The notes under the pieces are model-generated. The model saw only the letters and a list, made by a program, of their open reading frames with translations, was not told where the DNA came from and made no database searches. Positions 4,602 through 56,520 of a DNA stretch of 64,000 nt are shown here, in pieces (position 1 is the first letter of the stretch; every line of letters starts with the position of its first letter). The DNA lies in NCBI GenBank assembly GCA_937910235.1, contig CALENB010000047.1:1-64000 (forward strand), given 5' to 3'. The stretch is from an uncultured Myxococcales bacterium. GTDB taxonomy: Bacteria; Myxococcota_A; UBA9042. Made by a program: the position numbers and the translations under genes.

Positions 4602-7600
4602 CTAGCCACCGCAGACGAGCGGTTTGTCCCAGCAACAGTCGCCCGCCGAGGCGCAGAGGGCGTCGCATTGGCACATCTTGGCGGCGTCGTACTTCGCGCC
4701 GCAGATCTTCGCGCACGAGCCGCAGTCGATGGGGCAGCTGCTGCTCTCGCCGGCCTCGCACTTGCCATCGCCGCAGACCTTGCTGCTGCCCGCGAAGTTG
4801 AGCTTCACGTTGACGTGTTGGCAGACGGGCGCCTTGTTCTTGACGTTGAAGAACACCCACCCGGTCTCGTCGAAGTTGAGCAGGCCTGGCGCGTCGGGCT
4901 CCCACTTCAGCTGCCCAGTCTTACCCGTCATGCAGCAGCCGTTGGGCGCGACGCCGCTCACCGCGCTGTTGACGTACGTCTGCGCACCAGCGGGGCATTG
5001 CACCGGCGCGCAGTCCGTCTGATTGGCGCCGCTCAGGCACTGGTAGTAGGCACAGACCGTCACCTCAGAGGCCGCTGCCCAGCTGATGTCAACGACCGGA
5101 TCGACGGCATTAAAGTCGTCAACCACTCGGTATTTCAAGTAATCTACGTCGCTCAAGCCGAGGTGAACGAGCGGCTTGACCATCACCGCGTCCGCGTCGT
5201 CCGCGACGCTACCCAAGTTGATGCTCTCTGACGTCTTGGTCGGGCCCTCCCACTTGTCCGTCGCTTTGCAGAGCGCGTCATTGATCGCGACGCAGCTCCC
5301 CGGCTTGCTGGCGTCAGCCACGACGCACAGCTGCGCGGTTGTGCAGTCGGTCGCCGTGGTCCAGCTCGACCACACCCGATTGGCCGTGGCGGTGCTGCAG
5401 ACCGATGACCCGCCGGTGCAGCCGCCGTAGCTCTTGCGCACCTGCACGTTGCCGCCCGCCTCAAGCGAGCTGCACTGGTAGGCCGTCTCCAGCGCTGAAA
5501 CCCCGCATTTGGTGGCTTTCTTGGCGAAGTTGCCGGCGGCATCACAGCACGCTGCCTTCGGATCACACTGCGTCTTGACCTGCAGCCCAAATCCCAGCTT
5601 GACCCCGACCTCCTGGCAGAAAGGCGCCTTGTTCAGCACGTTGAAGAACACCTCGCCGCTGTTGTTGGCGCTGCCCGGCGTCTGCACCGCGTAGTCGATG
5701 GTGCCCTTGGCCAGCGTGGCGCAGCAGCCATTGACCGTCGCGGCGCTGACCGCGCTGTTCGAGAAAGACAGGGTCCCCGCCGGGCAGACCACATTGGCGC
5801 AGCTCTTGCCGTCTGCGGCCTTGGTGCAGCGGTAGTAGGCGCACACCATGACGGCGCCAGGCGCGCTCCACTCGACGTGCACACGCGGTTCGTGCAGGGG
5901 CGACGAGTCGGTCACCTGGTAGGTCAGGTAGTCCTTATCCGTCGGGCCGTTGAGGTGCACCGTGGGCGAGAGAATCAAGCTCGCAGACGCGTCCGTGTAC
6001 GCGCCGATGGATTTGCTGCTCGCTGTGGCCGGGGTGCCCTCCCATTTGTCGGACTTCTTGCAGTCGACGCCCGGCGCGAGGGCGCAGCCAGGCGATCCAT
6101 CGTCACCGACGGTGCAGACCGTGGTCGACTTGCAGGCGACGTGGGTAGTCCAGGCGCTCCACTTCAGGTTGGTGGCGCTGCAGGTGACTCCGTCGCCGGT
6201 ACATGCGCCCGTCGCCGTGCGCTTCTCCACCGCCAGGCCGTTCGACGCGCAGCGGAACTCGGTGCTCTGCTCGCTCGGACACACCGTGCCCTTGGCGACG
6301 GGCAGGCCGGTCACGGCGCAGCACGCAGCCTTCGGGTCGCACAGCTTCGCGGCCTCGCACGCCCCGCTGACGCCGCCGCTGCTCACGCCGCACACCTCGG
6401 TCGCGGAGCACTGCTTCTTGAGCTTCCATTCGCCCCACGCCAGATAGGCTTCAGCGGAGGAGCAGGTGTCCGAAGCGCCCGTGCAACCGGCCACCGCGTG
6501 CCGCTCGAGCAGCTGGCCGCCGGGCGTCGTGACGCTGCACTTCAGCTCGGTCTTGACCAAGGGGGTGTCGCAAGGGGTCGACTTCGGCGCCACTTTACCC
6601 TGCGCCGTACAGCAGGCGTTCGTCACGGCGGCGTTGCAGCTCGCGCCGACGACCACGCTCACACACTGCCCGGCGACGACCTTGTCCTTCACCTCACACA
6701 CGCTGCCCTTGCCGCACGCCAAGCTCGGCGCCCAGGCGCTCCAGTTCCAGTTGCTCTTCGACACCGAGCAGGTGTTGCTCTTGCCGGTGCAGCCGCGCGT
6801 CGCCTTGCGCGTCAGCACCTTCGCGCCGTCCGTGCTGCAGCTGTACTCACTGGCCTGCACCTCGTCGTCGCACTGGGCGGCGTTGATCTTGATGCGACCA
6901 GCCTTGTCGTCACAGCACGCGCCCGTCGTGCAGGTACACACGGCGGTCACGCTCCAGTCGCTCTGGTTGGCGCCCGGATCGCAGACCAAGCACCCGTCAG
7001 TCGCGTGTTTGGCGCCGCCGCTGTAGCAAGCGCCGCCGATCTTGCAGCCGCCCGCCTTCACCGCGCCGCTGCAGCTGCCGCTCTTGGGGTCGCAGACGCC
7101 GGTTTCACAGGCTGATGGCGCGCTGCAGACCTTCGCCACGTTGCCGCAGACGTTTTTTGCGCACGTGTCGACCGTGCAGGCGTTGCCGTCGTCACAATCA
7201 CTCGCGAAGACGCAGCAGCCCGCTTGGCTTTGGTTGCTGCACTTGCCGCCCGTGCAACTGTCCGTCGTACAGGGGTTGGCGTCGTCACAGTCGCCAACCT
7301 TCGTGCAGCCGCCGCCTGGCGACTGGCACACCGGGGCCACGGTGGCGCTCGACAACGTGCAGGTCTGACCGGTGGCGCAGCTCTGGATCGTCTTCCAGCC
7401 ACCCCACGCCAGGTTGGTCGCGCTGGTGGAGCACGTCGTCGCGCTCGTGCCAGTGCAGCCGGCCAGGGCCTCGCGCTTCTGCACCTGGGCGCCGAGGCAC
7501 TGGTACTCGGTCGCGACCGCCTTGTTGCCGCAAGGGCTCGCTTTGGGCAGCGCGCTGCCGCCGGCGACGTCGCAACACACGCCGCTCGCGCAGCATCCGG

Positions 7601-8663
7601 CCTGCGCCGAGAAGGAGCAGGCGCCCGTCGCCTTGTTGCAGCTCCCGATCTGGCAGGCTGTCGTGGTGGGGCAGGCCGCGTCGCTCGTGCAGCAGCCGCT
7701 CTTGCTGTTGCCCACGCAGGCGCCCTTCGCGTCGCACATGTCGCCCGTCGTGCAGATCTGGCCGTCCGTGCAGGCGGTGCCAGCTGATTTCAGGGTCCAC
7801 TGCTTGCTGTCTTGCTTCGCGTCACACACCGCACACGCGCTGCCGCCGGTGGCGCCATCGGCCACGCAGCTGCCGTCAATCGCGCAGAATCCAGCCTTCG
7901 CGGCGTGGGCGCATTGGCCCTTGGCGTCGCAGCTGTCGGTCGTGCAGCTGAGCTTGTCGTCGCAATCGCTCGCCGTCTTGCAGCAGCCGCTACCGACGCA
8001 GCCACACACCGTCTTCAGGTCCTTGCAGCAGTCGCCCGCTGTGGTGCAGTAGCTGTCGCATTGGCACGACGCCTTGGAGTCGTAGTCCCCGCAACGGCCG
8101 GCGCAGCTGTTCGGGCTGGTGATGACCCCGCCGTCTGATGAATCCGGCGTCACGTCGGAGTCGGCCGAAAGTCCCGTGTCCTGCCCGAGATCGGAGCCAC
8201 CGCCATCCGGCGCGCCCGCGTCGATCGTCGCGTCTGCGACGGCCGTATCGGGCTGGAGCGTGTCCGTCGGCTCGACGTCGGGCGCCGCAACGTCGCCCTG
8301 CGTGGTGTCGGGATCCGCGGTGTCGGGCCCTGCGGTGTCGGCCTCCGCGGTGTCAGCCTCCGCGGTGTCGGGCTGCACGGTGTCGGGCTGCACGGTGTCG
8401 GGCTGCACGGTGTCGGGAAGGGTCACGTCGGTGCCGGCGGTCGCAACGTCCTGGCTGCCCGCATCGGCCACGCCAGCATCGAAGGCGCCGACGCCGTCCA
8501 TGCCCTGGAAGGTGACGTCGCCAACCGGGTCGCCAGCGCCCGTGTCCGTCGGCCCAACGGCCTGCGGGTCGTCGCCGTCGCGCGGTGCGTCATCGCCGCA
8601 CGCGGGAGAGAAGCTGGCCAACATGATCGCGAGCAGCGCTCGCGTCTTCCACGTCTTCTTCAT
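4602..8663 (-). CDS. Very Cys-rich modular predicted lipoprotein (1353 aa) with somatomedin-B-like motifs near N-terminus and at C-terminus
   Basis: Lipobox FSPAC; Asp/Thr/Pro low-complexity linker; CAGRCGDYDSKASCQCDSYCTTAGDCCKDLKTVC and C-terminal CAKICGAKYDAAKMCQCDALCASAGDCCWDKPLVC; repeated Cys modules. Confidence 0.85.
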   Translation of the reverse strand: MKKTWKTRALLAIMLASFSPACGDDAPRDGDDPQAVGPTDTGAGDPVGDVTFQGMDGVGAFDAGVADAGSQDVATAGTDVTLPDTVQPDTVQPDTVQPDTAEADTAEADTAGPDTADPDTTQGDVAAPDVEPTDTLQPDTAVADATIDAGAPDGGGSDLGQDTGLSADSDVTPDSSDGGVITSPNSCAGRCGDYDSKASCQCDSYCTTAGDCCKDLKTVCGCVGSGCCKTASDCDDKLSCTTDSCDAKGQCAHAAKAGFCAIDGSCVADGATGGSACAVCDAKQDSKQWTLKSAGTACTDGQICTTGDMCDAKGACVGNSKSGCCTSDAACPTTTACQIGSCNKATGACSFSAQAGCCASGVCCDVAGGSALPKASPCGNKAVATEYQCLGAQVQKREALAGCTGTSATTCSTSATNLAWGGWKTIQSCATGQTCTLSSATVAPVCQSPGGGCTKVGDCDDANPCTTDSCTGGKCSNQSQAGCCVFASDCDDGNACTVDTCAKNVCGNVAKVCSAPSACETGVCDPKSGSCSGAVKAGGCKIGGACYSGGAKHATDGCLVCDPGANQSDWSVTAVCTCTTGACCDDKAGRIKINAAQCDDEVQASEYSCSTDGAKVLTRKATRGCTGKSNTCSVSKSNWNWSAWAPSLACGKGSVCEVKDKVVAGQCVSVVVGASCNAAVTNACCTAQGKVAPKSTPCDTPLVKTELKCSVTTPGGQLLERHAVAGCTGASDTCSSAEAYLAWGEWKLKKQCSATEVCGVSSGGVSGACEAAKLCDPKAACCAVTGLPVAKGTVCPSEQSTEFRCASNGLAVEKRTATGACTGDGVTCSATNLKWSAWTTHVACKSTTVCTVGDDGSPGCALAPGVDCKKSDKWEGTPATASSKSIGAYTDASASLILSPTVHLNGPTDKDYLTYQVTDSSPLHEPRVHVEWSAPGAVMVCAYYRCTKAADGKSCANVVCPAGTLSFSNSAVSAATVNGCCATLAKGTIDYAVQTPGSANNSGEVFFNVLNKAPFCQEVGVKLGFGLQVKTQCDPKAACCDAAGNFAKKATKCGVSALETAYQCSSLEAGGNVQVRKSYGGCTGGSSVCSTATANRVWSSWTTATDCTTAQLCVVADASKPGSCVAINDALCKATDKWEGPTKTSESINLGSVADDADAVMVKPLVHLGLSDVDYLKYRVVDDFNAVDPVVDISWAAASEVTVCAYYQCLSGANQTDCAPVQCPAGAQTYVNSAVSGVAPNGCCMTGKTGQLKWEPDAPGLLNFDETGWVFFNVKNKAPVCQHVNVKLNFAGSSKVCGDGKCEAGESSSCPIDCGSCAKICGAKYDAAKMCQCDALCASAGDCCWDKPLVCGG
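8371..8415. repeat. 15-bp perfect tandem repeat x3 (encodes PDTVQ on minus strand)
   Basis: ggctgcacggtgtcg repeated three times. Confidence 0.9.
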
Positions 8664-22457: not shown

Positions 22458-23012
22458 CTACGGACAGGCGACGCTGCCGTCGTCGTAGTGGACACAAAAC
22501 GTTTTGTCGACGAACCGCACACGCACCGTCGACGTGCAGCTGCGACCGCTGCCCTGCGCAAGCAGCGTCAGCGTGCCGTCCTTGTCGGCAAACGCTGTGG
22601 GATCGGGCGGCGACAGCCAGATCTCCAGGGGCTCCGTACGCCGATGTTGGTCAGCGGCGTCACCCGGGGTGCGGCTCGGCAAGACCGTCACGAGGGGCGC
22701 GCCGCCATCCTTGGCGCCCGACAGCTTGATCTGCACCGTCCGCGGCACCGCGCCCCACAGGTGGGCGCGCACTTGCACCAGCAAATATCCCTGGTAGCCC
22801 TTGAGCAGCTCGACCTCATCACCGTCGACCAGATGCCGCGCTGTGGTCGTGCCTGCGACGTCCTGGACCACCAGACCGCAGCGCAGCTCGTCGCCGTCGC
22901 CCACGTCGCTGTCGCTGCCGTCGGGCTGCGCGGAACAGGACGGGCTGACGGGCGCCACGGCGAGGGCGAGGGCGAGGGTGAGGCTCCGCAGCGACAATCG
23001 GTCTACGCTCAT
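22458..23012 (-). CDS. Predicted small lipoprotein, function unknown
   Basis: MSVDRLSLRSLTLALALAVAPVSPSCSAQPDG; start overlaps DUF423 stop (ATGA). Upstream part of the 497-aa ORF is an artefact. Confidence 0.6.
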   Translation of the reverse strand: MSVDRLSLRSLTLALALAVAPVSPSCSAQPDGSDSDVGDGDELRCGLVVQDVAGTTTARHLVDGDEVELLKGYQGYLLVQVRAHLWGAVPRTVQIKLSGAKDGGAPLVTVLPSRTPGDAADQHRRTEPLEIWLSPPDPTAFADKDGTLTLLAQGSGRSCTSTVRVRFVDKTFCVHYDDGSVACP

Positions 23013-23398
23013 GCCCGCATCTTCCAGGTCGCCCAGCCCAGCGCGGCCCAACCGACCAGGAAGCTCAGACCGCCAAGTGGGGTGACCATGCCGAGCTTGC
23101 GAACCCCCGTGCCCACCAAGGCGTACAGCGACCCCGAGAACAGCACGATGCCCACGATGAACGCGATCCCGGCCACCCCGAGAGGCCCCCGCGCGTTGTC
23201 GTTGCCCATGTCGCGGGCGACCCAGAGCGCCGTGTCGACGCCGATGAGCGCGAGCACGTGCACAAATTGGTATTTCACGGCGGTCGCCCAGACCACGAGA
23301 TCGCTCGGCTCCACGTGTTTCTTGAGCGCGTGGGCTCCGAAGGCGCCAAGGGCGACTCCGATGAATCCCAGCAGTGCGGCCCAAGGCGTAAAACGCAT
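23009..23398 (-). CDS. DUF423 family membrane protein
   Basis: ALLGFIGVALGAFGAHALKKH...VFSGSLYALVGTGVRKLGMVTPLGGLSFLVGWAAL. Confidence 0.85.
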   Translation of the reverse strand: MRFTPWAALLGFIGVALGAFGAHALKKHVEPSDLVVWATAVKYQFVHVLALIGVDTALWVARDMGNDNARGPLGVAGIAFIVGIVLFSGSLYALVGTGVRKLGMVTPLGGLSFLVGWAALGWATWKMRA

Positions 23399-23476
23399 CT
23401 AGAACTCCGGTTTCGTGGTCCATTTCGTGTCGGCGCGTCGCGCGATGTCGTCGCTCGCGGTGCGGGTGCGCGCATG

Positions 23477-24490
23477 CTAGTTCGGCGCGACGGGACGATA
23501 GGCCCTTCCCGTCAACGCTTTCAAGGCACGCGCAGCGGCCCTGCGCACCAACGGGCTCGGGTCGGCCAGCGCGGTCTCCAAGGCCGCCTGCGCTGTGCGG
23601 GCGCGCAGGCGGTGCAGCGCGGTGATGGCGTTCAGCCGCACGTTGGTTTCTTCGTCTTTCAGCGCCACGATGAGCGCCTGGACTGCGCGCTTGTCGTCCT
23701 GCGCACCCAGGGCAAACGCAGCCTTCGCGCGCACCGCGCCGGCCTTGTCGTGTTGGAGCACGGCGATGAGCAGCGGCACTAGAACCTTGATCTTCAGGGT
23801 TGCGAGCGCGGCCGCCGCGGTGGCCCTCACGTCCCGGTCCGGCTCCTTGCGTAGGGACCGACGCAGCGTGGCGGCGAGTGGGACCCCGCCGCCGCCCAGT
23901 CGCACAACCAGCAAACACGCCTGCGACCGCACGTTGGGGTGTTCGTGCCAAATCGCCCGCAGCAGCGCGGGGCGACTGTGGGTTGGATCGCGGAGCAACA
24001 ACTTGATCAGGCCTCGGGTCGGGCGGCTGTGTACGAGGTGCTGCAGACCATCGCGCAGCTGCGGATCATCGCTGAGCTGCTGGGTCGTGAAAAACGGCGG
24101 CAACGCCTCACCGACCGCGATCGCGCCGCTGGCTGCCGTCACCGTGCGCGAGGACTTCGGCGCGCTGAGAGGCGAGCGAGCCGCGGTCTGGGGCGCTACC
24201 GCTGCGGTCGGAGACGCCGGCAGGGCGGCGTGAGGTGCAGCCATCGCGGCTTGGGGTGTAGTAGCCACCGCGGGTTGGGATGTAGCCTCCGCGGCTCGGC
24301 GAGCTGCCACCGCGGCTTGAGGCGCGTCCCCTGCGGCCTTGGGCGTCACGACGACGGCGGTCTTGGCGACGGCTGACGGCGGCGGAACGGCTGGCACAGG
24401 CTTCGCGCAGCTCGCCGTCACCTGCGCGGCTAGGCAGGCGACAAGCGCGGCGAACGGCCGCGCTGCGGTCCTGGCGCGATCACCTCTCAA
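23477..24490 (-). CDS. HEAT-repeat predicted lipoprotein/secreted protein
   Basis: Ala-rich linker then HEAT repeats (VRAKAAFALGAQDDKRAVQALIVALKDEETNVRLNAITALHRL). Confidence 0.7.
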   Translation of the reverse strand: MRGDRARTAARPFAALVACLAAQVTASCAKPVPAVPPPSAVAKTAVVVTPKAAGDAPQAAVAARRAAEATSQPAVATTPQAAMAAPHAALPASPTAAVAPQTAARSPLSAPKSSRTVTAASGAIAVGEALPPFFTTQQLSDDPQLRDGLQHLVHSRPTRGLIKLLLRDPTHSRPALLRAIWHEHPNVRSQACLLVVRLGGGGVPLAATLRRSLRKEPDRDVRATAAAALATLKIKVLVPLLIAVLQHDKAGAVRAKAAFALGAQDDKRAVQALIVALKDEETNVRLNAITALHRLRARTAQAALETALADPSPLVRRAAARALKALTGRAYRPVAPN

Positions 24491-25611
24491 CGGCCCTCAC
24501 TCTCAAGGAAATCACCGAGGCCCGGCACGCGCTCGGCGGCTTTTCGTGCGAGTTTTCGGGTCCGGGCGAAGAGATGCTCCGCGTCAAACAGGTCTTCGTA
24601 GGCCAGCGGCGCGAGCGGCAGGGTGGGCGCGATGGGCGGGGGCGCTTGGCGCAGGCGCCGCACGACGCGGTCGGCAAACGATGCGCTGAACCCAGCGCGT
24701 GCCACGTCTGTCGACGGCAAAATCTCGGCCGCGACGTACTCCGCTGTGGCGACAGAGCAGATCCCCCGCCGCGCCGCGTCCTCGATCGAACCGGCGAGTC
24801 CGTGCGCGTCGACGCGGAAGCCGCTGACGAGGGCTTCGGCGACCGCGCTCACCTCGACCGCACCTGCGAGGCCGTCTTCCTGCAGGCTCAGCGCGATCTG
24901 CAGCGCGTTGAAGGTGGCGGTCACCCGGCCCTGATAGGCCGCGTAGCGTGACGGCGGCGAGCGGGTGTCGAGATGAATGAAGACGCGGCGAACCGGATCT
25001 TGGCGCGGCAGCTGGGCGAGCGAACCGAGGATGTGCCGCACCTCGTCATCGTAGGCGCCGACGTGTGATAACAAGCTGCGCAGGCGCGTCGCGTCGACCC
25101 GCCGAGCGACGATGTCCGTGTACAGACAGTAGATGAGAGCGTCGACCTCGGCGTCGTCGCCAAAACAGATCTCGTCGACATCCGCGTCACGTTCACGCAG
25201 CCACAGCCGCGTATCGAGGTGGGCCGCCAGCTTGTAGGGCACCTGCGCGCGGACGCTGCGCAGCTTGCGCACACGGCCGACGAAGTCTTTGAGCACGAGC
25301 TTGTCGCACCGCACGCCATGGAGCCGAAACATCGCCTCGATGCGGGCGCGCATCTGGGTCGGCGAGCCGCTGACCACGATGATGCGAGCGCGATGCCGCC
25401 GTGACAGCGCGGTGAGCAAGGCCCGCATCCCAGGCACAACGCGCTTGTTCTCGGCCTTCTCCGTGGCGGCTCGGAGCAGGCCACGAACCGAGGAGAAGTC
25501 GGTCTGGACGTAGGTTTTGTCGAGGTCCCAGCGATAGACGATCTCAGGTCGGCGCGGGTCATCAACGACGGGCGCAGCATGGGCCGAGGTGTCGGTTCTC
25601 AGTTCGCTCAC
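24487..25611 (-). CDS. HAD-like phosphatase, APP1/DUF2183-like
   Basis: YRWDLDKTYVQTDF motif I, RIIVVSGSPTQMR motif II, LVLKDF, ICFGDDAEVDALIY motif IV; GTG start overlaps plsX stop (GTGA). Confidence 0.6.
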   Translation of the reverse strand: MSELRTDTSAHAAPVVDDPRRPEIVYRWDLDKTYVQTDFSSVRGLLRAATEKAENKRVVPGMRALLTALSRRHRARIIVVSGSPTQMRARIEAMFRLHGVRCDKLVLKDFVGRVRKLRSVRAQVPYKLAAHLDTRLWLRERDADVDEICFGDDAEVDALIYCLYTDIVARRVDATRLRSLLSHVGAYDDEVRHILGSLAQLPRQDPVRRVFIHLDTRSPPSRYAAYQGRVTATFNALQIALSLQEDGLAGAVEVSAVAEALVSGFRVDAHGLAGSIEDAARRGICSVATAEYVAAEILPSTDVARAGFSASFADRVVRRLRQAPPPIAPTLPLAPLAYEDLFDAEHLFARTRKLARKAAERVPGLGDFLESEGR

Positions 25612-26657
25612 GCGCCCTCCTCCTGCCACAGCTCACGCGTGGCCTCCAGCTGCCGCGCGATCTCGTCCCGCAGACCGTGGCGCACGCACTTGCTCGCCAA
25701 CCGAATCGCGTTGGCCAACGCCGCCTCAGAGGAGTCTGGATTGGCGACCAGCACGAGCCTGTCGAGCCCCAGCAGCGGCGAGCCACCGTATTCCTTGAAC
25801 TCGCTGACCCGCTTGAGCATGCCGACGCCCGGAGACAACAGGCGCAACCCCGCCCGCCAGGTGACCTTCGACTTCCAGGCATACCGCGCGGCGTCGATCG
25901 TCAGGTCGGCGAGCCCCTCGAGCAGCCCCCGCACGGCGTGGCCGGTGTATCCGCCTGAGACCACCACGTCGGCATAGCCGCGCGGGATATCCACCGCTCG
26001 CACGTTGCCTACGAACTGAAAGCCCGCGATGCGTTTCAGCGCCCGATGGGCCGCGACGACGGCTGGCGGGCCTTCCTCCAAACCGAGGCCGGTAGACAGC
26101 AGCGAGACCTGCGGTTGGCGCACGCCGCTCACGACCTTGGCGTAGGCGGCGCCCATAACCGCAAACGCGATGAGCTGGCCGGCCGTCGCGGCGGCCTCGC
26201 CCGACACGTCAAGCACCAGCGCGAAGGGGTCGTCGCCAGAGGACCGCGGCAGCGTCGGCACGACGGACGCCAGCGCGGGCGCGACGCCGGGCACGACGCT
26301 CGCCAGCGTCTCGCGCGCGAGCTGCCAGGCGACGCCGGGCGGGGCAGCGGTCACGAGCGCGTCGCCCTCGCCATCGACGAGCAGCCCGAGCGCGACGGGC
26401 AACGCCGCGCGGGCGGCTTGGGTCGCAGCGAGCGCATCACCGGTTTGGCGGGGGTAGGGCGCCGGCGCGCCGACGATGCGCAAGCGCATGGGATCGTAGC
26501 TGAGCCCGGCAAGTCGGCGTTGCAGCTCAGCGGCGTCGCCCACGAGCAACAGCTGCGCTTTACCGACCAGAGATTGCCTGGCGGCCGCAGCCAGGATCGC
26601 GTCAGGTGCGGCGTTGCCACCGTAAGTGTCTACGACGATGGTCGGCTGGTTGGCCAT
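25608..26657 (-). CDS. PlsX-like phosphate acyltransferase (divergent)
   Basis: TIVVDTYGGNAAP, QPQVSLLSTGLGLEEGP, FVGNVRAVDIPRGYADVVVSGGYTGHAV, EYGGSPLLGLDRLVLVANPDSS..A..NAI. Confidence 0.8.
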   Translation of the reverse strand: MANQPTIVVDTYGGNAAPDAILAAAARQSLVGKAQLLLVGDAAELQRRLAGLSYDPMRLRIVGAPAPYPRQTGDALAATQAARAALPVALGLLVDGEGDALVTAAPPGVAWQLARETLASVVPGVAPALASVVPTLPRSSGDDPFALVLDVSGEAAATAGQLIAFAVMGAAYAKVVSGVRQPQVSLLSTGLGLEEGPPAVVAAHRALKRIAGFQFVGNVRAVDIPRGYADVVVSGGYTGHAVRGLLEGLADLTIDAARYAWKSKVTWRAGLRLLSPGVGMLKRVSEFKEYGGSPLLGLDRLVLVANPDSSEAALANAIRLASKCVRHGLRDEIARQLEATRELWQEEGA

Positions 26658-26725
26658 GGCGACTCCAAGGGCAGAGGAGGTCGCGAGCGTACCCGATCGG
26701 GGCGCTAGGCGCCCGTCACTGAAGG

Positions 26726-27280
26726 CTAGTTCATCACCAGGAAGCCGCCGGCTAGGCCGATCAGCGCGTAGAGCTCGGGCACGCCGGCGGCGAGCAGCGC
26801 CTGACCCTGATTCATCTGACCGTTGTTGATGCTCTTGATGCACGCCGCGGCGGTGCGCGCCTGGCCGATCGCGCTCAACAGGCACGGCACGCCGCAGATG
26901 ACGCCGGCGAGCGCGACCTTCGCCATCATCGCCGGGTCGCCCCACTGGGACTTCACGTTGGCGATCATGAGGAAGGCGATGGCAAATGCGTACAGCCCCT
27001 GCGAGCCAGGCATGACCGCCGGGATGAACGCCGCGCCGCGACGATCGGGCTCACACGCTGCATAGGCCGACAGCGAGATGCTCAGCGCGTAGCCAGAGCT
27101 CGCCATGCCAAAGCCAATCGCGATGAACGAGATGAGGATCATGATGATCTCGCCCGTGCCCGAGCCGGCAGCCGGCGCGGCAGCGGCGACATCAGCGAAG
27201 GCCGGCGTCGCGATGAGGGTCGCAATGAGGGTCGCGGTGAGGGTCGCGAGAGGGGCGGTCAGATGGCGGATGTGCTTCAT
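26726..27280 (-). CDS. V-type ATP synthase subunit K (membrane rotor)
   Basis: Two hairpins: MPGSQGLYAFAIAFLM and AIGQARTAAACIKSIN...GVPELYALIGLAGGFLVM. Confidence 0.88.
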   Translation of the reverse strand: MKHIRHLTAPLATLTATLIATLIATPAFADVAAAAPAAGSGTGEIIMILISFIAIGFGMASSGYALSISLSAYAACEPDRRGAAFIPAVMPGSQGLYAFAIAFLMIANVKSQWGDPAMMAKVALAGVICGVPCLLSAIGQARTAAACIKSINNGQMNQGQALLAAGVPELYALIGLAGGFLVMN

Positions 27281-27337
27281 GTCTAGGGCCTCAGGGTGGA
27301 TGGCACGCAGGCGCGGGCAACTCAGGAAATTGAAACG

Positions 27338-29143
27338 TTAGGACGTTGGACCTCGACGCATCGGGCTGTACCAGATCTGCCCGCCGTCGAAGCAATTGCT
27401 CCCAAACTCAAGAAAAATCAACCGATTGGTGTGGATATACAGGGACAGGAGCGCGAGCAGGAAGACGAAGAAGTGGCCCAACACGGCAACAACCACGCCG
27501 AGCGCAAGCGGCAACATGCCAGCGACCTGATTGACGACCATGGCCATGATCGAGCCCGACAGCGCGATGCCAAACAGCCGCATGTGGCTCATGACGTCTT
27601 GGCCAAATCCGGTCATGCCCGAGTAGAGCGTCCAGATGACGTTGGGGATGCGCTTGTCGTCGAAGATCCGCTCGGGAAAGACCATCCACATCAGCACGCC
27701 GAGCACCAGCAGGGACTGACCGCCAAGACCAGCACCAAACGCGACCTGGGCCACGAGCGCTTCGGGGGGGTGTTTGACCACCAGCCCCATCGCCAGCTCG
27801 GGCGCGCCCTCGCCGATGACCAGCGCGATGGCGCCGAGCGCGAAGAGCAGGCTCCCTGTGGCGTTGGTTCGCCAACCGCGCTGCCAGACGGCGCTGCCAT
27901 AGCTGACGGTCATGCCGATCATGCCGACGACGAGCGAGAAGATGAAGCTGGTCATCGGGTCCGACGCGAGGGCCGTGGGTGGTCGATGACCGTCCAGAAA
28001 CCCACTCTGACCGACGACCTGACCGAAATATTGGCCAGCGATCACGCCGACGACCGTGGAAAATGCGCCTGTGAGCGCAAAAACGTTGCCAAACGCGACC
28101 TGGCCTTTGCGTCGTAGCAGCAGCCCGGCCACGAGCAGCAACAGGCCGTAGCCGGCGTCCAGCAGGCACAGGGAGCCGAAGACCAAGAACAGCATGCCGA
28201 CGATCGCGGTGAAGTCCTTCTCCCAATAGCTGATCCCGGAGAACGCTTGCACCACGGACTCAAAGCCACGCACCACGACGTTGTTCTGCAGCTTGACCGG
28301 CACCGCGTCGTCTGCGGCGGGCGAATCGAAGCGCAACACGACAGCAAACCCCTTGAGGGCGCGCTGCAAGTCATGCTGCTCCTCAGCGGGCAGAAACCCC
28401 TGGATGGCGAAGATCGGGCCGTCTTTGAGGCCGCCATCTTCGGTTTTGAGCACGACCACGCGATCGTGCAGCTGCGCGAGGCGCTGGTCGATGCCGCGCA
28501 CATAGCCATGGAAACTGCCGAGGATCTCCTCGGTCTCACGGAGCTCTCGCCGCACCTGCTCGCGCTCGGCGATGGCGCTGCTCAGCGTGCGACGCGGCAG
28601 GCGCACCCGATCGATGTTTAGGTCGGCGGCGACGTCGCCAAACAGCGCCACCCACACCTCGTCGTCGTTTTGCTGGCTGATGACGTAGGGGACGTTCGCG
28701 ACGTTGAGCTCACGCCAGTCATTCCACGTCAGCCGAGCGAGGCGGACCGGCGCGCCACGCGCGGTCAGGTCGTCGAGCACGGCAGGATCGAAATCTCCCC
28801 ACGGCGCCAGGGCGGCGATGTTGGTGTCGAGCGAACTCAGGCGCTCATGGAGCACCCGACGCTCCTCCGCGAGGTGCTCGACTCGCTCCACGACCGCGCC
28901 GACCGCGATGCCGGGCACCTCGCGACCGCTGCTATTCACCGACAAAATCGCGGTACGAGCGCGTTTGAGCTGCGCAGCGCGGTCCAGTGGATCGCGCGTA
29001 CCGCTGTGCAGCGCGGCGAGGTCTTCCGGGGGACGCATGGGCTCGACATGCAGCAGCCCGACGTCCATCACAGTGGTCAAGATCGCTTCGGCTTCGCGGC
29101 TACGGCCAACCAGCGTGGCCTTCAGCATGCGTACAATGCTCAT
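27338..29143 (-). CDS. V-type ATP synthase subunit I
   Basis: N-terminal cytosolic coiled-coil, C-terminal TM; LYSGMTGFGQDVMSHMRLFGIALSGSIMAMVVN. Confidence 0.9.
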   Translation of the reverse strand: MSIVRMLKATLVGRSREAEAILTTVMDVGLLHVEPMRPPEDLAALHSGTRDPLDRAAQLKRARTAILSVNSSGREVPGIAVGAVVERVEHLAEERRVLHERLSSLDTNIAALAPWGDFDPAVLDDLTARGAPVRLARLTWNDWRELNVANVPYVISQQNDDEVWVALFGDVAADLNIDRVRLPRRTLSSAIAEREQVRRELRETEEILGSFHGYVRGIDQRLAQLHDRVVVLKTEDGGLKDGPIFAIQGFLPAEEQHDLQRALKGFAVVLRFDSPAADDAVPVKLQNNVVVRGFESVVQAFSGISYWEKDFTAIVGMLFLVFGSLCLLDAGYGLLLLVAGLLLRRKGQVAFGNVFALTGAFSTVVGVIAGQYFGQVVGQSGFLDGHRPPTALASDPMTSFIFSLVVGMIGMTVSYGSAVWQRGWRTNATGSLLFALGAIALVIGEGAPELAMGLVVKHPPEALVAQVAFGAGLGGQSLLVLGVLMWMVFPERIFDDKRIPNVIWTLYSGMTGFGQDVMSHMRLFGIALSGSIMAMVVNQVAGMLPLALGVVVAVLGHFFVFLLALLSLYIHTNRLIFLEFGSNCFDGGQIWYSPMRRGPTS

Positions 29144-29805
29144 GCGGCGCTCCCCGCCATGGCGGTGTCTGCGGCAGCGTCCGCGACCGCTCTCGCGTCG
29201 CGGGCCTTCGCCTTGGCCTTGCCCTTGGCGATCTTGGCGCGGGCGACGGCAGCGACCTGGAGATCTCCCAAGGCGATCTTGATGCGCCGAATGGCCTCTT
29301 TGGCTTCCGGAATCAGCACGATCTCAAAGAGGTTCACCTTCTGCGTGGTGCGTCTCAGCTCACGGTCAACCAGATCGAACTGCTGCTGAATGATGTGCAT
29401 CTCGGTGTTCAGCTGCACAAACCGGCGCAAGCGAGGCAGCGCGCGGCTGACCCAGGCTGGGGTACCGAAGCGGCTGAGGCCCACGTCTGGAAAATGCACG
29501 CGGTCAAGCGTCGGCACAGCCACACCGGCCACGGTCTTGGTCCCAATCACCAACTCTCGGGCCTTCGTCAGCTTGACCAAATCGACCAGCAGCGGCTCGG
29601 CGAACAGCGGCAGCATCCCGTCCCAGCCGTGTCGCGCCTTCTCGAGGTCGGCGCGCCGCGCCTCCAGCTCGCGCCGGATCTTGAGCTGCTCGGCTTGCAG
29701 CTGCTCCTGCTTGAGCTTCAGCACCGGCAAGAACTGCAAGTAGGTCTTCACCTCGCGCCGGGTGCGCGTCAGCTCGACCTTGTTGAGCTTGTATTTGCGG
29801 GCCAT
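29140..29805 (-). CDS. V-type ATP synthase subunit D
   Basis: KYKLNKVELTRTRREVKTYLQFLPVLKLKQEQLQAEQLKI...VNLFEIVLIPEAKEAIRRIKI. Confidence 0.9.
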   Translation of the reverse strand: MARKYKLNKVELTRTRREVKTYLQFLPVLKLKQEQLQAEQLKIRRELEARRADLEKARHGWDGMLPLFAEPLLVDLVKLTKARELVIGTKTVAGVAVPTLDRVHFPDVGLSRFGTPAWVSRALPRLRRFVQLNTEMHIIQQQFDLVDRELRRTTQKVNLFEIVLIPEAKEAIRRIKIALGDLQVAAVARAKIAKGKAKAKARDARAVADAAADTAMAGSAA

Positions 29806-29918
29806 GGCGAGGCAGCTCCAAGTTCGAGTGAGCAGATGCGGACGTCAGATGCGCGGCGACGACGTACGGAGCGGGTGCGAGCGAGATGCCCGACCCAGGG
29901 CGACACAGGGCGACGGGA

Positions 29919-31214
29919 CTAGCTCGGCCAGTACACGTCGGTCAGTTTGCTTGGCAGTCCCGACTGGGTGGGCGTGAAGTGCTTGGCGAGCAGCTGCCAG
30001 CCGAGGTCAAGTTGAGCCTCCAACGGCAAGTTGACCTTCAGGTCCATCATGCGCACCTCAAACTCAGCACCGTAGGCCAGGACGGCTTGGTCGAGCGCCG
30101 AGATCGTGAAGCCCATCGACTGCTGCTGTCGCACTTTGCGTGACGCGTCAAACAGCTGAATCATCGCGGTCATGAGCGGGGCGTGGTCGTCGCGGGTGTT
30201 CTTGTTTACGAGCTGCTTGAGCCGCGACAACGAGCCGAAGGGGTCGATGACGCCGCCCTTGAGGTAGAACTGCCCTTCCGTGATGTAGCCGGTGTTGTCG
30301 GGCACGGGGTGGGTCACGTCGTCGCCGGGCATCGTGGTCACCGCCAACAGCGTGATGGAGCCGGAGCCCTCGATGTCGACCGCTTTCTCGTACCGCGACG
30401 CGAGCTGAGAGTACAGATCGCCCGGATAACCGCGGTTTGCGGGGATTTGCTCCATCGCCACCGCGACCTCTTTCATCGCGTCGGCGTAAGCCGTCATGTC
30501 GGTGAGCAGCACCAGCACGTCCTTGCCAGCGGTGGCGTATTGCTCAGCCGCGGCCAGCGCCATGTCGGGCACCATCATGCACTCCACGACCGGGTCGGCG
30601 GCGGTGTGAATGAACATGATCGTGCGCTCTTTGCTCGGCACCAGCTGCTTCTTGAAGAAGAGATAATCGTCGTACTTCAGCCCCATCCCGCCGAGCACGA
30701 TGACGTCCGCGCGGGCCTGCAACGCGATCCGCGCCAGCAGCTCATTGTAGGGCTCACCCGCCACCGAGAAGATGGGCAGCTTCTGGCTCTTCACCAAGGT
30801 GTTGAACATGTCGATCATCGGGATGCCGGTCTGGATCAGCTCCGACGGGATGATGCGATTCGCCGGGTTGAAGGACGGACCGCCGATGTCGATGTCCTTG
30901 GTCTGCTGCAACGGCGGGCGACCGTCGATGGGCTCGCCGACGCCGCTAAAAGTCCGGCCCAACAGGTTCTCAGCGGAGAAACCAAGCTGCACCTGGCGGC
31001 CCAGAAACTCGACCTCATCGCCCGTGCTGATGCCCTTTGAGCCCGCGAACACCTGGAGTGTCACAAGATCGCCGAGCAGCTTGATCACCTGGGCGTAGGT
31101 GGTGTTGCCGTCCTTGAGCCGGATGCGCGCGAGCTCGCCATAGGCGATGCCCTCGGCGTGCAGGCTGACGACTGGGCCAACGATCTGATCGATGTGCGTG
31201 TAGACCTTGCGCAT
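29919..31214 (-). CDS. V-type ATP synthase subunit B
   Basis: [54 protein letters not shown]. Confidence 0.93.
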
Positions 31215-31225
31215 GATGTCTCCTG

Positions 31226-33013
31226 CTACGCGGCGCCGCTAAGACGCGACTCCAATCGATCGAGCAGCTGTAGGTACTCGGGGGCGTCGGTGGCGGTGAT
31301 GTTCCAATCGCGGAACGTCGCCGTGATCTCGGTGAAGGCGTCGCGCGCTTGCACCTTGTTTGTGAACGCAAAGTCGTGATCGACGATGCGCGCGGTCAAC
31401 TGCAGCGACAGCGCGGTGCGATCGGCCTCTGGGCTTGCGTCCACAGCGTTGAAGGCGTTCTGCTGCAGGAACACCGAGTCGATGAACTCGGAGCCGAGGA
31501 AACGAACAAAGTCGGGGAGGCTGAGATCCTCTTCGCCCACGACCTTCATCTGATCACCGACGCGCTGACCCTCGACGTAGTACAGGGCGAGGCGCTTGAC
31601 GGTGTCGACCCAGCCGACGAAGTAGAGCTTCTCGAGCGCGGGTCTCATACGGTCGATGTACTTCGACCACGAGTCCGTCGGCGAGATGGCTGGGAACCGT
31701 TTGGCGTAGGACCGCGCGTACGTGAGGCCGAGAAAACAGCCCACGACAGCGAGGGTGGACTGGGTCACGGGCTCTTCGAAGTTACCGCCAGCGGGTGAGA
31801 CCGTACCGATGGTGGTGACGGAGCCCGTCTGCGTGCCGAGGTTCGGATCTTCGATGCGGACCAGGCCGGCGCGCTCGTAGAACGCCGCGATCAGGGAGCT
31901 GAGGTAGGCGGGGAAGGCCTCCTCGCCGGGGATCTCTTCGAGGCGACCGCTCATCTCGCGCAAGGCCTGGGCCCAGCGACTGGTGGAGTCGGCCAGCAGC
32001 AGGGTGCGAAGCCCCATCTGGCGATAGTACTCAGCCAGCGTGACGGCGGTGTAGACCGACGCCTCACGCGCGGCGACGGGCATCGAGGAGGTGTTGCAGA
32101 TGATGATGGTGCGCTTCATCAGCGACTCGCCCGTGCGCGGGTCGGTCAACTCTGGGAACTCGCGCAGCGTCTCGACGACCTCACCGGCGCGCTCACCGCA
32201 GGCGGCGACGATCACCACGTCGGCCTCGGCGAACTTGCTGACACCCTGCTGAAAGACCGTCTTTCCGGAGCCGAAGGGGCCAGGCACGCAGGCGGTGCCG
32301 CCCTCGGCGACTGGGAAGAAGGCGTCCACGATACGGATGCGGGTCGTCAGCGGCGTCTCGGGCAGCAGCCGCTCGGCGTAGGCGGTGATCGGGCGCTTAA
32401 CCGCCCACGGCATCACCATGGTGAGCTCGCGGATCTCACCGGTGGCGAGGAGTTTCACCTTGGCCACGGTCTGCGCGACGGTCATGTCGCCGGGGGACGC
32501 CAGCTCCAGCACCTCGACGGCGCCCACGATGCCGAATGGCACCATGATGCGGTGGGTGTACATCGACTCGGGCACCGTACCGAGGGCATCGCCGGCCTTG
32601 AGGTGCTGGCCGATGCGGGCCACCGGTGTCCAGGCCCACTTCGTCGTGCGATCGAGGGTCGGCAGGTAGACGCCGCGCTGCAGGTAGTAGCCGCACTTCT
32701 CAGCGAGGGCGCCCAACGGATTGCCGAGACCGTCGTAGGTCGTCGACAGCAACCCGGGCCCGAGTTCAATGGCGAGCAGCTCGTCTGTGAAGGAGACGGG
32801 GGTGCCGACACGCACGCCGCGGGTGTCTTCAAACACCTGCATGTCGCACTCGCGGCCGCGGATTCGGATCACCTCCGCCTTGAGGTTGATCGACTCGCCC
32901 TGGTCGTCGGTCATGTCGATGTAAGCGACCTCGTTCATGCGGACGTCGCCGGTGAAACGCACCGAGACCATGTTGCCGCTGACGCCGAAGACGCTGCCTT
33001 GCTTGTCGCTCAT
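31226..33013 (-). CDS. V-type ATP synthase subunit A
   Basis: Walker [60 protein letters not shown]. Confidence 0.94.
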
Positions 33014-33831
33014 GGAGTTCCCGTGCCGGGTTGCTGGGCGCCCGGTGTTGATGCGGCAGATTCCGCGGGGATGTGGAGGATCTGGTCCAAGACCGACCGA
33101 CCTAGCGCCGCGTTCCACGAAGCCGAACGCTCGAGGATGCGAAGCTGCAGGTAGTACGCCAACACGAACTCCACCGAGAACAAGTCGTACCGATTCAGCG
33201 TGTCGATGTGCGACCAGAACAGGTCGCAGAGGGTCCGTTCAGCGCGGAGCAGGTCCTCGTCTTCAAACGCGGACAGCGCGGTCGGGAGCCACTTGAAGCG
33301 CTGCTCGAGTCCGAGGCCGCGCTCCTCCCAATGACTGATGATCACGTTGGCCGAGGCGTCGAAGCTACCTTGCATCTGAGCCAGGAAAGCCGGGCGATCA
33401 GCGCCCTCCGCACGCGAGAGCGTAGCGGTCTTCACCTCTTCGACGTCGACAAGGAAGTTGGCCCAGTCCCGCAAAAAGCTGGTCTTCGCACCGCGGGTCA
33501 GCTCGAAGTAATGTCGCTGCAGGAGGCGGTGTTGTGGCAACGGCCGGTGCAGCCAGGCGGGCAGCTCGTCGGCGGTCTTGTTGTCACGGCGGTCGGTCAG
33601 CACTGCGGCGTTCAACGACGCGGCGGACACGTCTGGATCGTCGAGTTGAGCGGCGAGGCTCAGTCGCACGGTCTCCTCGACGGACTCCAGGCGCAGCATG
33701 CGCTCGAACTCCTCAAGATCGCTTCTCTCCAACTCACTGCGACAGCGGGCCACGAAGTCGGCGCGCGTCAGCGGCGGATCCTCGCCGCGCACCAGTCGCG
33801 GCAAGCCTGTGATCAGGTAGACGAGGCCCAT
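33010..33831 (-). CDS. DUF2764 protein, V-ATPase-associated (likely C/d-like subunit)
   Basis: MGLVYLITGLPRLVRGEDPPLTRADFVARC; located between subunits E and A, overlapping A. Confidence 0.8.
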   Translation of the reverse strand: MGLVYLITGLPRLVRGEDPPLTRADFVARCRSELERSDLEEFERMLRLESVEETVRLSLAAQLDDPDVSAASLNAAVLTDRRDNKTADELPAWLHRPLPQHRLLQRHYFELTRGAKTSFLRDWANFLVDVEEVKTATLSRAEGADRPAFLAQMQGSFDASANVIISHWEERGLGLEQRFKWLPTALSAFEDEDLLRAERTLCDLFWSHIDTLNRYDLFSVEFVLAYYLQLRILERSASWNAALGRSVLDQILHIPAESAASTPGAQQPGTGTP

Positions 33832-50281: not shown

Positions 50282-53200
50282 CTACTTGAGTCCCAGCAGA
50301 CCTGAGATCCACTGGTAAAATCCGAACTTCGCGGTGTACTTCGTGCTAGCCGCTGCGCCACCGACGGGCGTGCCACCGGCGAAAGCCCTGATCGTCAGCT
50401 TGCCAGCGGTGCCCGCTACGACGGCGTTACCGTTCCGCGCCAGGAACGCGGTCGGAGCGCAGCCCTCATCGACAACGCCGCTGCAGCTGTTGTCCTTGCC
50501 GTCACAGATCTCGTTGGCCGGCTTCGTGTCGCCGACGCAGGTCCCGAGCGTGCCGTCCGCGGCGCACTTCTGCACGCCGTCGTCGCACAGACCCACCTTT
50601 CGCGTCTTGGGCGGTCCGGTGTAGCAGGCCACCGACAGGTTGGTGTTGACGGCGTTGCTGCAGCCCTTGTCTTTGTCGCAGGCGTCTTCGGTGCACGGGT
50701 TGCCGTCGTTGCACGTCAGCGCCTTGCCGCTCACGCAGGACCACGCCCCGACGCTGTCCGTGGCGCAAACGTCACCCGATGTACACGCGTTGTTGTCCGA
50801 GCACGACTGGATGAGTGGCTTCGTCCCGCACTTGCCGGTCTGCTTGTCGCAGCTGTCCGCCGTGCACGGGTTACCGTCATCGCAGTTTGTATTTTTACCA
50901 GCCTCGCACTTGCCCAACACGCACTTGTCGCCAGCGGTGCAGGCGTCGCCGTCCGCGTCGCAGGTGCCACCCTGGGCGGTGTGGACACACCCCTGCTTCG
51001 GGTCGCAGCTGTCCGCGGTGCACGGGTTGCCGTCATCGCACTTCAACAGCGTCCCAGACAAACATTTGCCCGACTTGCAGGCGTCTTGCGTCGTGCACAG
51101 CGAACCGTCCGCATCACAGGGGGTGCCGGTCGCCTTGACGTCCTGCTCGCACTTGCCGGTCTTCACCGCGCACGCTGTCTTCAGGCAGTAGTTGTCCGCG
51201 CTCAGGTCGCATTTCACGATCGTCACCGGGTTCACCTTGCACTCGTTGTTGGTGTCGCAGTACAGCGTGCCATTGCACAGGTTGCCGTCCTCTTTCGCGG
51301 CGCAGTCCGTATCCTTTGTGCAGGCGCAGGTGTTGACACCGCTCTGGCAGAGACCCTTCACGCAGGCGTCATTCTGGGTGCAGCTGTTGCCGTCGTCGCA
51401 GCTCTTGTTGACCAGCGCGGTGTTCGTGCAGCCGGTCTTCGGGTCGCACGCGTCGATGGTGCACTGGTTGCTGTCGTCGCAGGTCTTGGAGACGTTGACC
51501 GCCTGGCCCTTGCAGACGCCACCCTGGCAGCTGTCGCCGGTCGTGCAGGCGTCGCCATCTGAGCAGGCGCCTGAGAGCGGCGTGTTGACGCAGCCCTCCT
51601 TCGGATCGCACGAGTCGCTTGTACACGCGTTCTTGTCGTCGCAGTTGAGCAGGGCGCCTGGCTTGCAGAGCCCCGCAGCGCACGCATCGCCGGAGGTGCA
51701 GACGTTGTCGTCGGCCTTGCAGGGCGTGCCGTCGGTCTGCTTGAGGATCTCACACTTGCCGGTCTTGGCGTTGCAGCCGTTTGTTTGGCAGGTGCTGTTC
51801 ACGGACTTGTCGCACGTGACGATCGTGCCGGGGTTGACCTTGCAGCTGAAGGGTTGCGCGCTCTTGTCGCAGTACAGCGTGCCGTTGCAGACGTTGCCAT
51901 CCTCAGACGACGCGCAGTCCGTGTTCGACGTACAGCCACACGTGTTCACGCCGCTGTTGCAGGTGCCGCCCTTGCAGTAGTCGCTCTTGGTGCAGGCGTT
52001 GCCATCGTCGCAGGTCGCGGCGTCGTCAGGCGTGCTCACGCAACCCTTCTGCGGGTTGCAGCTCTCGATGGTGCAGACGTTGTTGTCGTCGCACTTCTTC
52101 TTCGGGTCGAACACAGTACCCGCGCACAGCCCCTTGCTACAGGTGTCCTTCTCGGTGCAGGCGTTGCCGTCATCACACGCCTGACCCGACGTTACGGGCG
52201 AAAAGACGCAACCCTTGTCCTTGTCACACTGGTCCTGGGTACACGGGTTCTTGTCATTGCAGACGATGGCGGTGGGCCCAAAGCAGGTGTAGACGCCGAT
52301 GGTTGGCTCTTTTCCGCACTGGTCATCGGAGGTGCAGGCGTTGCCATCGTCGCATTTGTCGACGATCGGGGCGTGCAGGCACTTGCCGGTCTTCGGGTCA
52401 CAGGCGTCCTTCGTGCACGACTCTTTGTCGTCACAGTCCGCCGTCGTACCCGTCACACACGTCGCCGATTGGCAACTGTCGCCGCTGGTGCACAAGCTGT
52501 CGTCGGCATCACACGGGTTCGTGTTCGCCTTGTGCGCGCAGCCCTGCTTGGGGTCGCAGCTGTCGTCGGTGCAAGGGTTCTTGTCATCACAGCTGACGGG
52601 CGCGCCCTGAAGGCACTTGCCGCCATTGCAGGCGTCGTTCTCGGTGCAGACGTTATTGTCGGCATCGCACGCCTTACCCTTGACCTCTTGCGTGATGCTG
52701 CACTGACCGTCCTTAGGATTGCAGGCGTTGTTCTGGCAGGCGTTGTTCAGGCTTGTGTCGCACGTGACCTTGCTGCCTGGCTTGAGCTCACACTGGAACG
52801 GCTGCTTCGACGTGTCGCAGTACAACGTGCCATTGCAGAGGTTGCCGTCTTCCTTCGACGCACACTGCGCGTCGTTGGTGCAGCCGCACGTGTTGACGCC
52901 CGACTTGCACTTACCCGCATCGCAGCTGTCGTTCAGGGTGCACGCGTTTCCGTCATCGCAGCTGCCCGACGTCTTCGCGGCGTTGACGCAGCCGGTGTCG
53001 GCCGCGCAGGTGTCGAGTGTACAGTCGTTGTTGTCGTCGCACGTGCCGGTCACGTCGATCGCGAGCCCTAGGCACTTGCCGTCTTTGCAGCTGTCCTGCT
53101 GCGTACACTTCGAGTCGTCATCGCACGGGCCGGCAGCCGCCTTGTGCGCGCAACCCTGTTTCGTGGGGTCGCAGCTGTCGACAGTGCAGGTGTTCTTGTC

Positions 53201-54765: not shown

Positions 54766-56520
54766 CTACTTGCACACGGGCGGTGAGGTCTTCATCGACA
54801 AGAAACACGACGTCCCAGCCGAACACACCTTGTAGCTCTGCCACGCCTCAGACGCAGGCTGGCTTTGCGAGCACTTGTTCGCCTCTTCTGGCTTGCCGGT
54901 GCAGCCTGGGAAGAGCTTTCGCTTGAAGCCGTTGCCACCTTCGCACTTGTACTCCGCGCCGATGCTGAAGGTGCTGCACTGGGTCCCGAGCGGCTTCAGC
55001 TTGCCAGCCGGGATGTCACAGCAAACGCCGGCGGAGCAACAGCTCGGGTCTGGTTGTGTGGCACACACACCGTCGCCCTTGCACACGACCTTCTCGCACG
55101 CCTCGGGGTTCACCTTGCCTACGCAATCTGCGTCGCTCTTGCAGCAGTTCGGCTCCGTCTTGCCTTTGCAGAGGCCGTCGGCAATGCAGAGCGTGTCGAT
55201 GCTGCAGGGGTCGTCGTCAGCGCACGCGGTGCCGACTTTCTTCGCTGTCCAGGCCGTCACCGACTTGCTGGTGTCGCAGGTCTGGCAGCCAAATGCCCCA
55301 GGCTTGCTGGCTCCGGTCGCGACACACACGCCGTCGATGACACAGAATCCAGGCTTAGGTGTCAGCGTCGCCGACGACTTCGTCGGATCGCAGACGGCGC
55401 AGCTCGCGGCCGGGTCGCCAGCGCCGGTGTCGTAGCACTTATCACCTACAGCGCACTTGCCGCTCACGCCGCTCCAGCCCGTCTGCGATTGGCTGGGTTG
55501 GCAGCTGGCGCAGTTGGGGTTGGCCAAGCTCGTGGCGCCACTCAAGTGGCACTTGCCGTCGATGAGGCACGCGCCGCTGGCGACGCTCCACGTCCCCGTG
55601 TCCTTGCTGGGATCGCACACCCTGCACTCGCCGACGCTGGTCGACGCGGGCTCACCGCTCTTGCTGCAGATCCCGTCGATCAGGCAGGTCCCGGGCTTCG
55701 AGGTCCATGCGTCCGGGGCCTTGTCGGGCTGACACAGGACGCAGCCGCCGCTGCCCGGTTTACTGGCGCCCGCGCCGTGGCAAGCGCCGTCGATCAGACA
55801 CTTGGTGGACGACAGCTTGTGCGAACAGTCACCGGTGGTCGGGTCGCAGGCGTCGATCGTGCAGTCGACACCGTCATTGCAGTCCTTCTCTACGTCGCTG
55901 CACGTACCCTGGAGGCAGGTCGGCGTGATGCACTTGTTCTTGCCGGCCGTGCCGCAGGCCGCGTCCGAGTTACAGCAGCCAAAGAACGGCAACTGCTTGC
56001 ACCACTTCTTGCCGTCGCTCGTGGTGGCGCATTTGTCGCTCGTACACTGGTTGCCATCGTCGCAGTCACTCAGCGTCTCGCAGCTGCAGGCCGCCGTGAA
56101 GTCCGCGCAGCAGTCGCTTCGCGCGATGCAGCCGTGGTCGCAGTGGCAAGCGTTGGCCTCGAGGTTGATGCCGCAGGAGCCGGCGCAGCTCGTGATCGCG
56201 ACAGGTCCCGTGTCGGGCGGTCCCCCGTCACCTGACGTCGCATCCAGGCCGTCGGTGTCGGCGCTGGCGAGACCGTCACCGATGACCACGTCGACCGAAG
56301 GTTCGACCGTGTCGAGGCTCGTGGCGTCGGAGCTGGTGTCTTGCTGAAACGTCCACCCGGACGTGTCCCCGCCAGCATCCGCGACGGCGAAATCAAGGCT
56401 GTAGACGGTGGCGTCCTTCTTCGTGCTGTCGTCTTCGCCGCACGCGGAGACGATCAAGCAGAGCGCGAACGCGCAGGTAGCGGAGAACTGACCGGTGCTG
56501 GTGGAGTTGATTCGACGCAT
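54766..56520 (-). CDS. Cys-rich modular predicted lipoprotein with somatomedin-B-like motif
   Basis: Lipobox LIVSAC; CAGSCGINLEANACHCDHGCIARSDCCADFTAAC; five CxIDGxC/CxxC units (one reads CAVGDKC); C-terminal CC...GCTG module. Confidence 0.82.
   Translation of the reverse strand: MRRINSTSTGQFSATCAFALCLIVSACGEDDSTKKDATVYSLDFAVADAGGDTSGWTFQQDTSSDATSLDTVEPSVDVVIGDGLASADTDGLDATSGDGGPPDTGPVAITSCAGSCGINLEANACHCDHGCIARSDCCADFTAACSCETLSDCDDGNQCTSDKCATTSDGKKWCKQLPFFGCCNSDAACGTAGKNKCITPTCLQGTCSDVEKDCNDGVDCTIDACDPTTGDCSHKLSSTKCLIDGACHGAGASKPGSGGCVLCQPDKAPDAWTSKPGTCLIDGICSKSGEPASTSVGECRVCDPSKDTGTWSVASGACLIDGKCHLSGATSLANPNCASCQPSQSQTGWSGVSGKCAVGDKCYDTGAGDPAASCAVCDPTKSSATLTPKPGFCVIDGVCVATGASKPGAFGCQTCDTSKSVTAWTAKKVGTACADDDPCSIDTLCIADGLCKGKTEPNCCKSDADCVGKVNPEACEKVVCKGDGVCATQPDPSCCSAGVCCDIPAGKLKPLGTQCSTFSIGAEYKCEGGNGFKRKLFPGCTGKPEEANKCSQSQPASEAWQSYKVCSAGTSCFLSMKTSPPVCK

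Follow-up and report, generated by a model that had tools for sequence, protein, structure and literature searches.

A Conserved Cysteine-Rich Unit Shuffled between Secreted Proteins of Uncultured Myxobacteria

Introduction

Cysteine-rich repeats of secreted myxobacterial proteins are represented by the models TIGR02232 (myxo_disulf_rpt) and TIGR04201 (Myxo_Cys_RPT), both of which are shorter than the unit described here. Another small extracellular module relevant to the present proteins, the Somatomedin B (SMB) domain, is best known from animals. With respect to function, TraA of Myxococcus xanthus has been characterized as a Cys-rich surface receptor for cell–cell recognition in myxobacteria (PMC3325183, PMC6626042). 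In this study, a 64,000-nucleotide stretch of DNA from an uncultured Myxococcales bacterium (hereafter, the window) was analyzed, in which two genes encode proteins sharing a cysteine-rich unit of another kind. We describe its copies, predicted fold, partner domains, and distribution, and discuss its probable role.

Results

The larger gene is a minus-strand open reading frame with an ATG start, whose 1353-residue product is ordered as a signal, an Asp/Thr-rich stalk, SMB, CTDC-like repeats, U1, a further CTDC-like region, U2, U3, U4, X1, U5, X2, and SMB, where U and X denote the unit and a second repeated domain, respectively (Table 1). A nearly identical module order was observed in its two orthologues. 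The initial annotation had counted five unit copies in this protein and a sixth at the end of a second lipoprotein, and all six were scored by a profile constructed from the 14 unit copies that the host genome carries on further contigs, and thus independently of the window. This profile gave 45–88 bits for U1–U5 (domain E 6e-13 to 1.8e-26), while the top domain score among 2000 composition-preserving shuffles of the 1353-residue protein was 9.9 bits. The SMB domains, domain X, and the wider unit family were absent from that annotation of the unit copies.

Table 1. Positions of the genes, unit copies, and partner domains in the window.
Feature	Position	Strand	Remarks
Gene of 1353-residue secreted, probably lipid-anchored protein	4602..8663	-	Orthologues L043, L048
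Unit copy 1 (U1)	7326..7592	-	Independent profile, domain E 7.5e-22
Unit copy 2 (U2)	6663..6932	-	Independent profile, domain E 6.7e-21
Unit copy 3 (U3)	6357..6638	-	Independent profile, domain E 6.4e-23
Unit copy 4 (U4)	6084..6341	-	Independent profile, domain E 6e-13
Unit copy 5 (U5), AlphaFold2-modelled copy	5292..5567	-	Independent profile, domain E 1.8e-26
Domain X1, about 155 residues, β-rich, directly C-terminal to U4 (boundaries approximate)	5586..6062	-	Alignment
Domain X2, second copy, directly C-terminal to U5 (boundaries approximate)	4791..5270	-	
SMB, N-terminal in 1353-residue protein	8001..8111	-	PF01033 above cut-off
SMB, C-terminal in 1353-residue protein	4608..4718	-	PF01033 above cut-off
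Second lipoprotein gene, 584 residues, lipobox VSAC (SMB, CTDC-like repeats, one C-terminal unit)	54766..56520	-	
Unit copy 6, C-terminal domain of second lipoprotein	54772..55038	-	Independent profile, E 2.2e-14, 50 bits
SMB of second lipoprotein	56083..56193	-	PF01033

Each unit is about 86–94 residues long (~92), contains ten cysteines, and begins at a Cys located a few residues ahead of a CC pair; R, G, and W..W are conserved as well. In profile numbering, the conserved positions are C1, the CC pair at 6–8, C21, C32, R43, C49-x-G51, and C56, followed in the C-terminal part by W65, W68, C74, C80, and C91. The Cys/Trp motif read initially is real, but it omitted the first Cys, the last Cys, and the conserved Arg, and the length of ~80 residues assigned to the unit was slightly too short. 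Among the 296 distinct copies identified using a single profile, exactly 10 cysteines were found in 230 and 12 in 33 (10 or 12 in 263), and the number was even in about 90%. The twelve-Cys form, which occurs in distant genomes, has one extra Cys in a hairpin loop and another at the C-terminus, as if one bond had been added. Since cysteines are almost never lost among the aligned copies, their co-loss is uninformative on pairing. Three VKOR homologues scored above cut-off in the host genome, consistent with folding under oxidation outside the cytoplasm. The even and conserved number of cysteines, these homologues, and the compact predicted fold agree with the earlier proposal of a disulfide-bonded domain, the bonds themselves being predicted. 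No conserved polar constellation suggestive of an enzyme was recognized in the unit alignment.

The structure of one copy (U5) was predicted with AlphaFold2, using an input of sixteen aligned rows taken from the window and from its two named relatives. The model had a mean pLDDT of 96.1 and a pTM of 0.79, with strands at residues 27–32, 40–49, and 70–74. Prediction of a single copy, which had been suggested as a check on the domain, thus gave a compact fold (pLDDT 96) and not disorder, and the unit is confidently predicted to fold.

In the host genome (7.1 Mb, 593 contigs), 26 unit matches were detected in all. Twenty copies, spread over five proteins and four contigs, were read: the six of the window (five plus one), seven on C31, six on C181, and one on C502. 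The unit was present in 22 of 22 sampled genomes of the host's family, the host included, with 3 to 38 matches each. Phylum-wide, 34 and 33 positive genomes were obtained in two samples of 379, about a dozen lying outside the host family. The proposed restriction to a clade is therefore borne out only partly: the unit is universal in one family but scattered through the phylum, and a divergent copy resides in a predicted phage contig. From stretches of the positive genomes, about 98 distinct proteins with 303 unit matches were collected. A search of the whole 1353-residue protein against genome contigs gave two relatives, one of which is from Myxococcales bacterium isolate GY13CH_bin.24, while tblastn against plasmid and phage records returned nothing relevant (one partial Rhizobium match, E 0.5). 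The divergent copy (E 1.4e-5) is contained in a 233-residue lipoprotein-like ORF of a 63 kb IMG/VR contig (L195, 4596–5297, plus strand). A Mu-like Gp48/baseplate gene and a tail-fibre-like gene flank this ORF, which has the opposite orientation and is perhaps a phage-carried accessory lipoprotein. Similar modules of the form GCPWG...CSGSS presumably occur also in candidate-phyla genomes.

The unit is a real, conserved, and mobile domain that is shuffled between secreted proteins. Its partners in the host family are SMB, CTDC-like repeats, CARDB, and domain X. Domain X was located only directly after a unit, wherever it was found, and exhibited no match to Pfam; the model of X2 was of low confidence and β-sandwich-like, being too weak for naming a fold. 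SMB gave 33 matches above cut-off in the host genome and none in 14 control genomes. Adjoining the second lipoprotein, a 1425-residue protein (50282–54559, minus strand) contains 13 Dicty_CTDC repeats (PF00526, E 1.1e-57). The partners found in distant genomes are Amidase_3 (L086), RCC1 repeats plus EGF (L090), Lcl_C (L084, L169), FG-GAP repeats (L151), P_proprotein, which is the proprotein convertase P-domain (L162), and MopE-like motifs (L086, L166). At a further locus (L176, 2–1522, minus strand), two units follow an N-terminal Cys/His arrangement that resembles a C39-type peptidase by eye, and the sole Pfam match was weak (Peptidase_C70, E 0.0076).

In most unit proteins, the N-terminus carries a lipobox-like signal together with a stalk that is acidic and Asp/Thr-rich. 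Such a signal was detected in about three quarters of the ~98 proteins using a crude search pattern, some matches of which are false. The lipobox sequence is SPAC in the 1353-residue protein, which is non-canonical, VSAC in the second protein, and LSAC in the orthologue L048; the latter two are the reason for assigning the 1353-residue protein as a probable lipoprotein.

A tree was built from 108 copies of 20 host-family proteins. The copies grouped in it largely by their position in the protein across genera, unit 1 copies with unit 1 copies and unit 2 copies with unit 2 copies, for instance, with modest support. This indicates that much of the tandem array predates the genera and that each copy has retained its identity. 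The unit gene evolves under purifying selection; comparison of the window gene with its two relatives gave dN of 0.27–0.29 and dS of 0.79–1.29 (NG86), with dN/dS of about 0.22–0.34. In at least 7 related genomes, the five-unit gene directly adjoins APP1-like and PlsX-like genes. These are about 15 kb away in the window, which points to an insertion or rearrangement in its lineage. They lie there together with V/A-type ATP synthase genes (22458–33118, minus strand).

Discussion

On balance, we consider it somewhat probable that the unit represents an extracellular domain not described before, which folds autonomously, and that its copies form a surface array binding external ligands. The unit proteins would be exported by Sec and usually lipid-anchored after the acidic Asp/Thr-rich stalk, and their cysteines would be oxidized outside the cytoplasm by VKOR-type enzymes. 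Each unit may adopt a small three-strand β fold with about five intramodule disulfides, in which the conserved Arg and W..W are placed in or near the strands. The units would then be displayed as a rigid tandem array beside the SMB, CTDC-like, CARDB, and X modules. A fixed scaffold combined with variable loops would most likely serve to bind ligands outside the cell (glycans, matrix, prey, or neighbouring cells, for example), and the 1353-residue protein could act as a multivalent adhesin or receptor on the cell surface.

The main rival to ligand binding is a rigid spacer: the units would bind no ligand themselves and only keep the functional X, CARDB, amidase, β-propeller, and SMB domains at a distance from the membrane. 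Such a role could not be told apart from binding on sequence alone, and we regard it as conceivable, though rather doubtful. It is consistent with the distant genomes, which often place a single unit between the acidic Asp/Thr stalk and a partner domain, and with the great variety of partners. However, units also close proteins at the C-terminus, as in the second protein of the window and in proteins of 6–7 units (L011, L054, L060), and their copies differ from one another yet are position-conserved across genera, which is needless for a plain spacer. Ligand binding is preferred because of these two features, the terminal position of some units and the position-specific sequences of the copies.

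It is unlikely that the unit is a divergent form of a known small disulfide fold, for example a thrombospondin type 1 repeat or a disintegrin. Similar to TSP_1, the unit has three strands in its model, W..W, a middle-strand Arg, and, in distant copies, a CSxxCG-like hairpin; a TSP1-like strand-B pattern CSxSCGGxVQxRxxxxC was seen by eye in the L086 and L090 copies together with W..W. The Trp pair is, however, late in the unit, not in the first strand as in TSP_1, and the unit has 10 Cys in about 90 residues. Neither TSP_1 nor any other consistent Pfam family was matched across 46 scanned members (E<=10), and no PDB chain was obtained at E<=10 using the unit sequence profile; membership in TSP_1 is not supported by these profile searches. 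The first part of the unit resembles a disintegrin in its G-CC ... GT-C spacing, while its second half is unrelated. Disintegrin (PF00200) is the sole Pfam family touched by two members (2 of 26, best E 1.7), which is not significant. A Foldseek search of the unit model gave nothing significant against PDB (best E 3.0, TM 0.29), although this method performs poorly on very small folds rich in disulfides, nor against viral models (best E 1.7).

The remaining candidates were likewise set aside. Neither whole window protein matched NCBIfam, and no consistent NCBIfam family emerged among 26 unit members: TIGR04201 matched one of them (E 0.064, below the curated cut-off) and TIGR02232 none at E<=1. 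UPAR_LY6 (PF00021) gave a single match among 20 members (E 0.12). The Somatomedin B model (PF01033) was called only outside the units, so the units themselves have no match to it; SMB is likewise a small disulfide-rich extracellular module of the same proteins, but it has about 40 residues and stands separately beside the units. Dicty_CTDC (PF00526; CDDGNxCTxDxC) forms separate 24-residue repeats between the units, and such a repeat replaces the first C...CC part of the unit in some proteins. Judging from these comparisons, the unit appears to be of a known kind, a small disulfide-rich extracellular module, whose family is unnamed in the Pfam, NCBIfam, and PDB sequences searched. This agrees with the initial annotation, which had assigned the unit to no named family and proposed the profile search. 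No description of the unit was found in the literature.

A protease-inhibitor or anti-predation module, multi-headed and Cys-rich like Kazal or TIL arrays, is quite improbable: the units are tandem and disulfide-rich with variable loops, but they exhibit no evident conserved exposed reactive loop, and the adhesion-type and cell-wall domains fused to them point to binding at the surface. A low-complexity sequence that is periodic by chance can practically be dismissed in spite of the high Cys content (about 11% after the stalk), since the scores of the independent profile (45–88 bits versus at most 9.9 bits in the 2000 shuffles) refute it, as do the shared spacing in about 300 homologous copies and the pLDDT of 96.

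Because the unit is unnamed in current libraries, whole surface proteins of uncultured myxobacteria lack annotation, and a profile made from the collected copies would annotate at least 98 proteins. Its confidently predicted fold, for which the search gave no solved relative, lends itself directly to structural study. Furthermore, since units are fused to a wall hydrolase and adhesion-type domains, they provide a way of testing how these bacteria make contact with their environment. More tentatively, the small-protein fold of the unit may itself be new, serving myxobacteria and perhaps a phage of theirs as an interchangeable surface recognition module with fixed cysteines and with loops that can vary in specificity. 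As such a recognition module, it would be comparable in role to the EGF and TSR modules of animals, and the proteins that carry it would resemble TraA, a Cys-rich surface receptor of myxobacteria, in function only.
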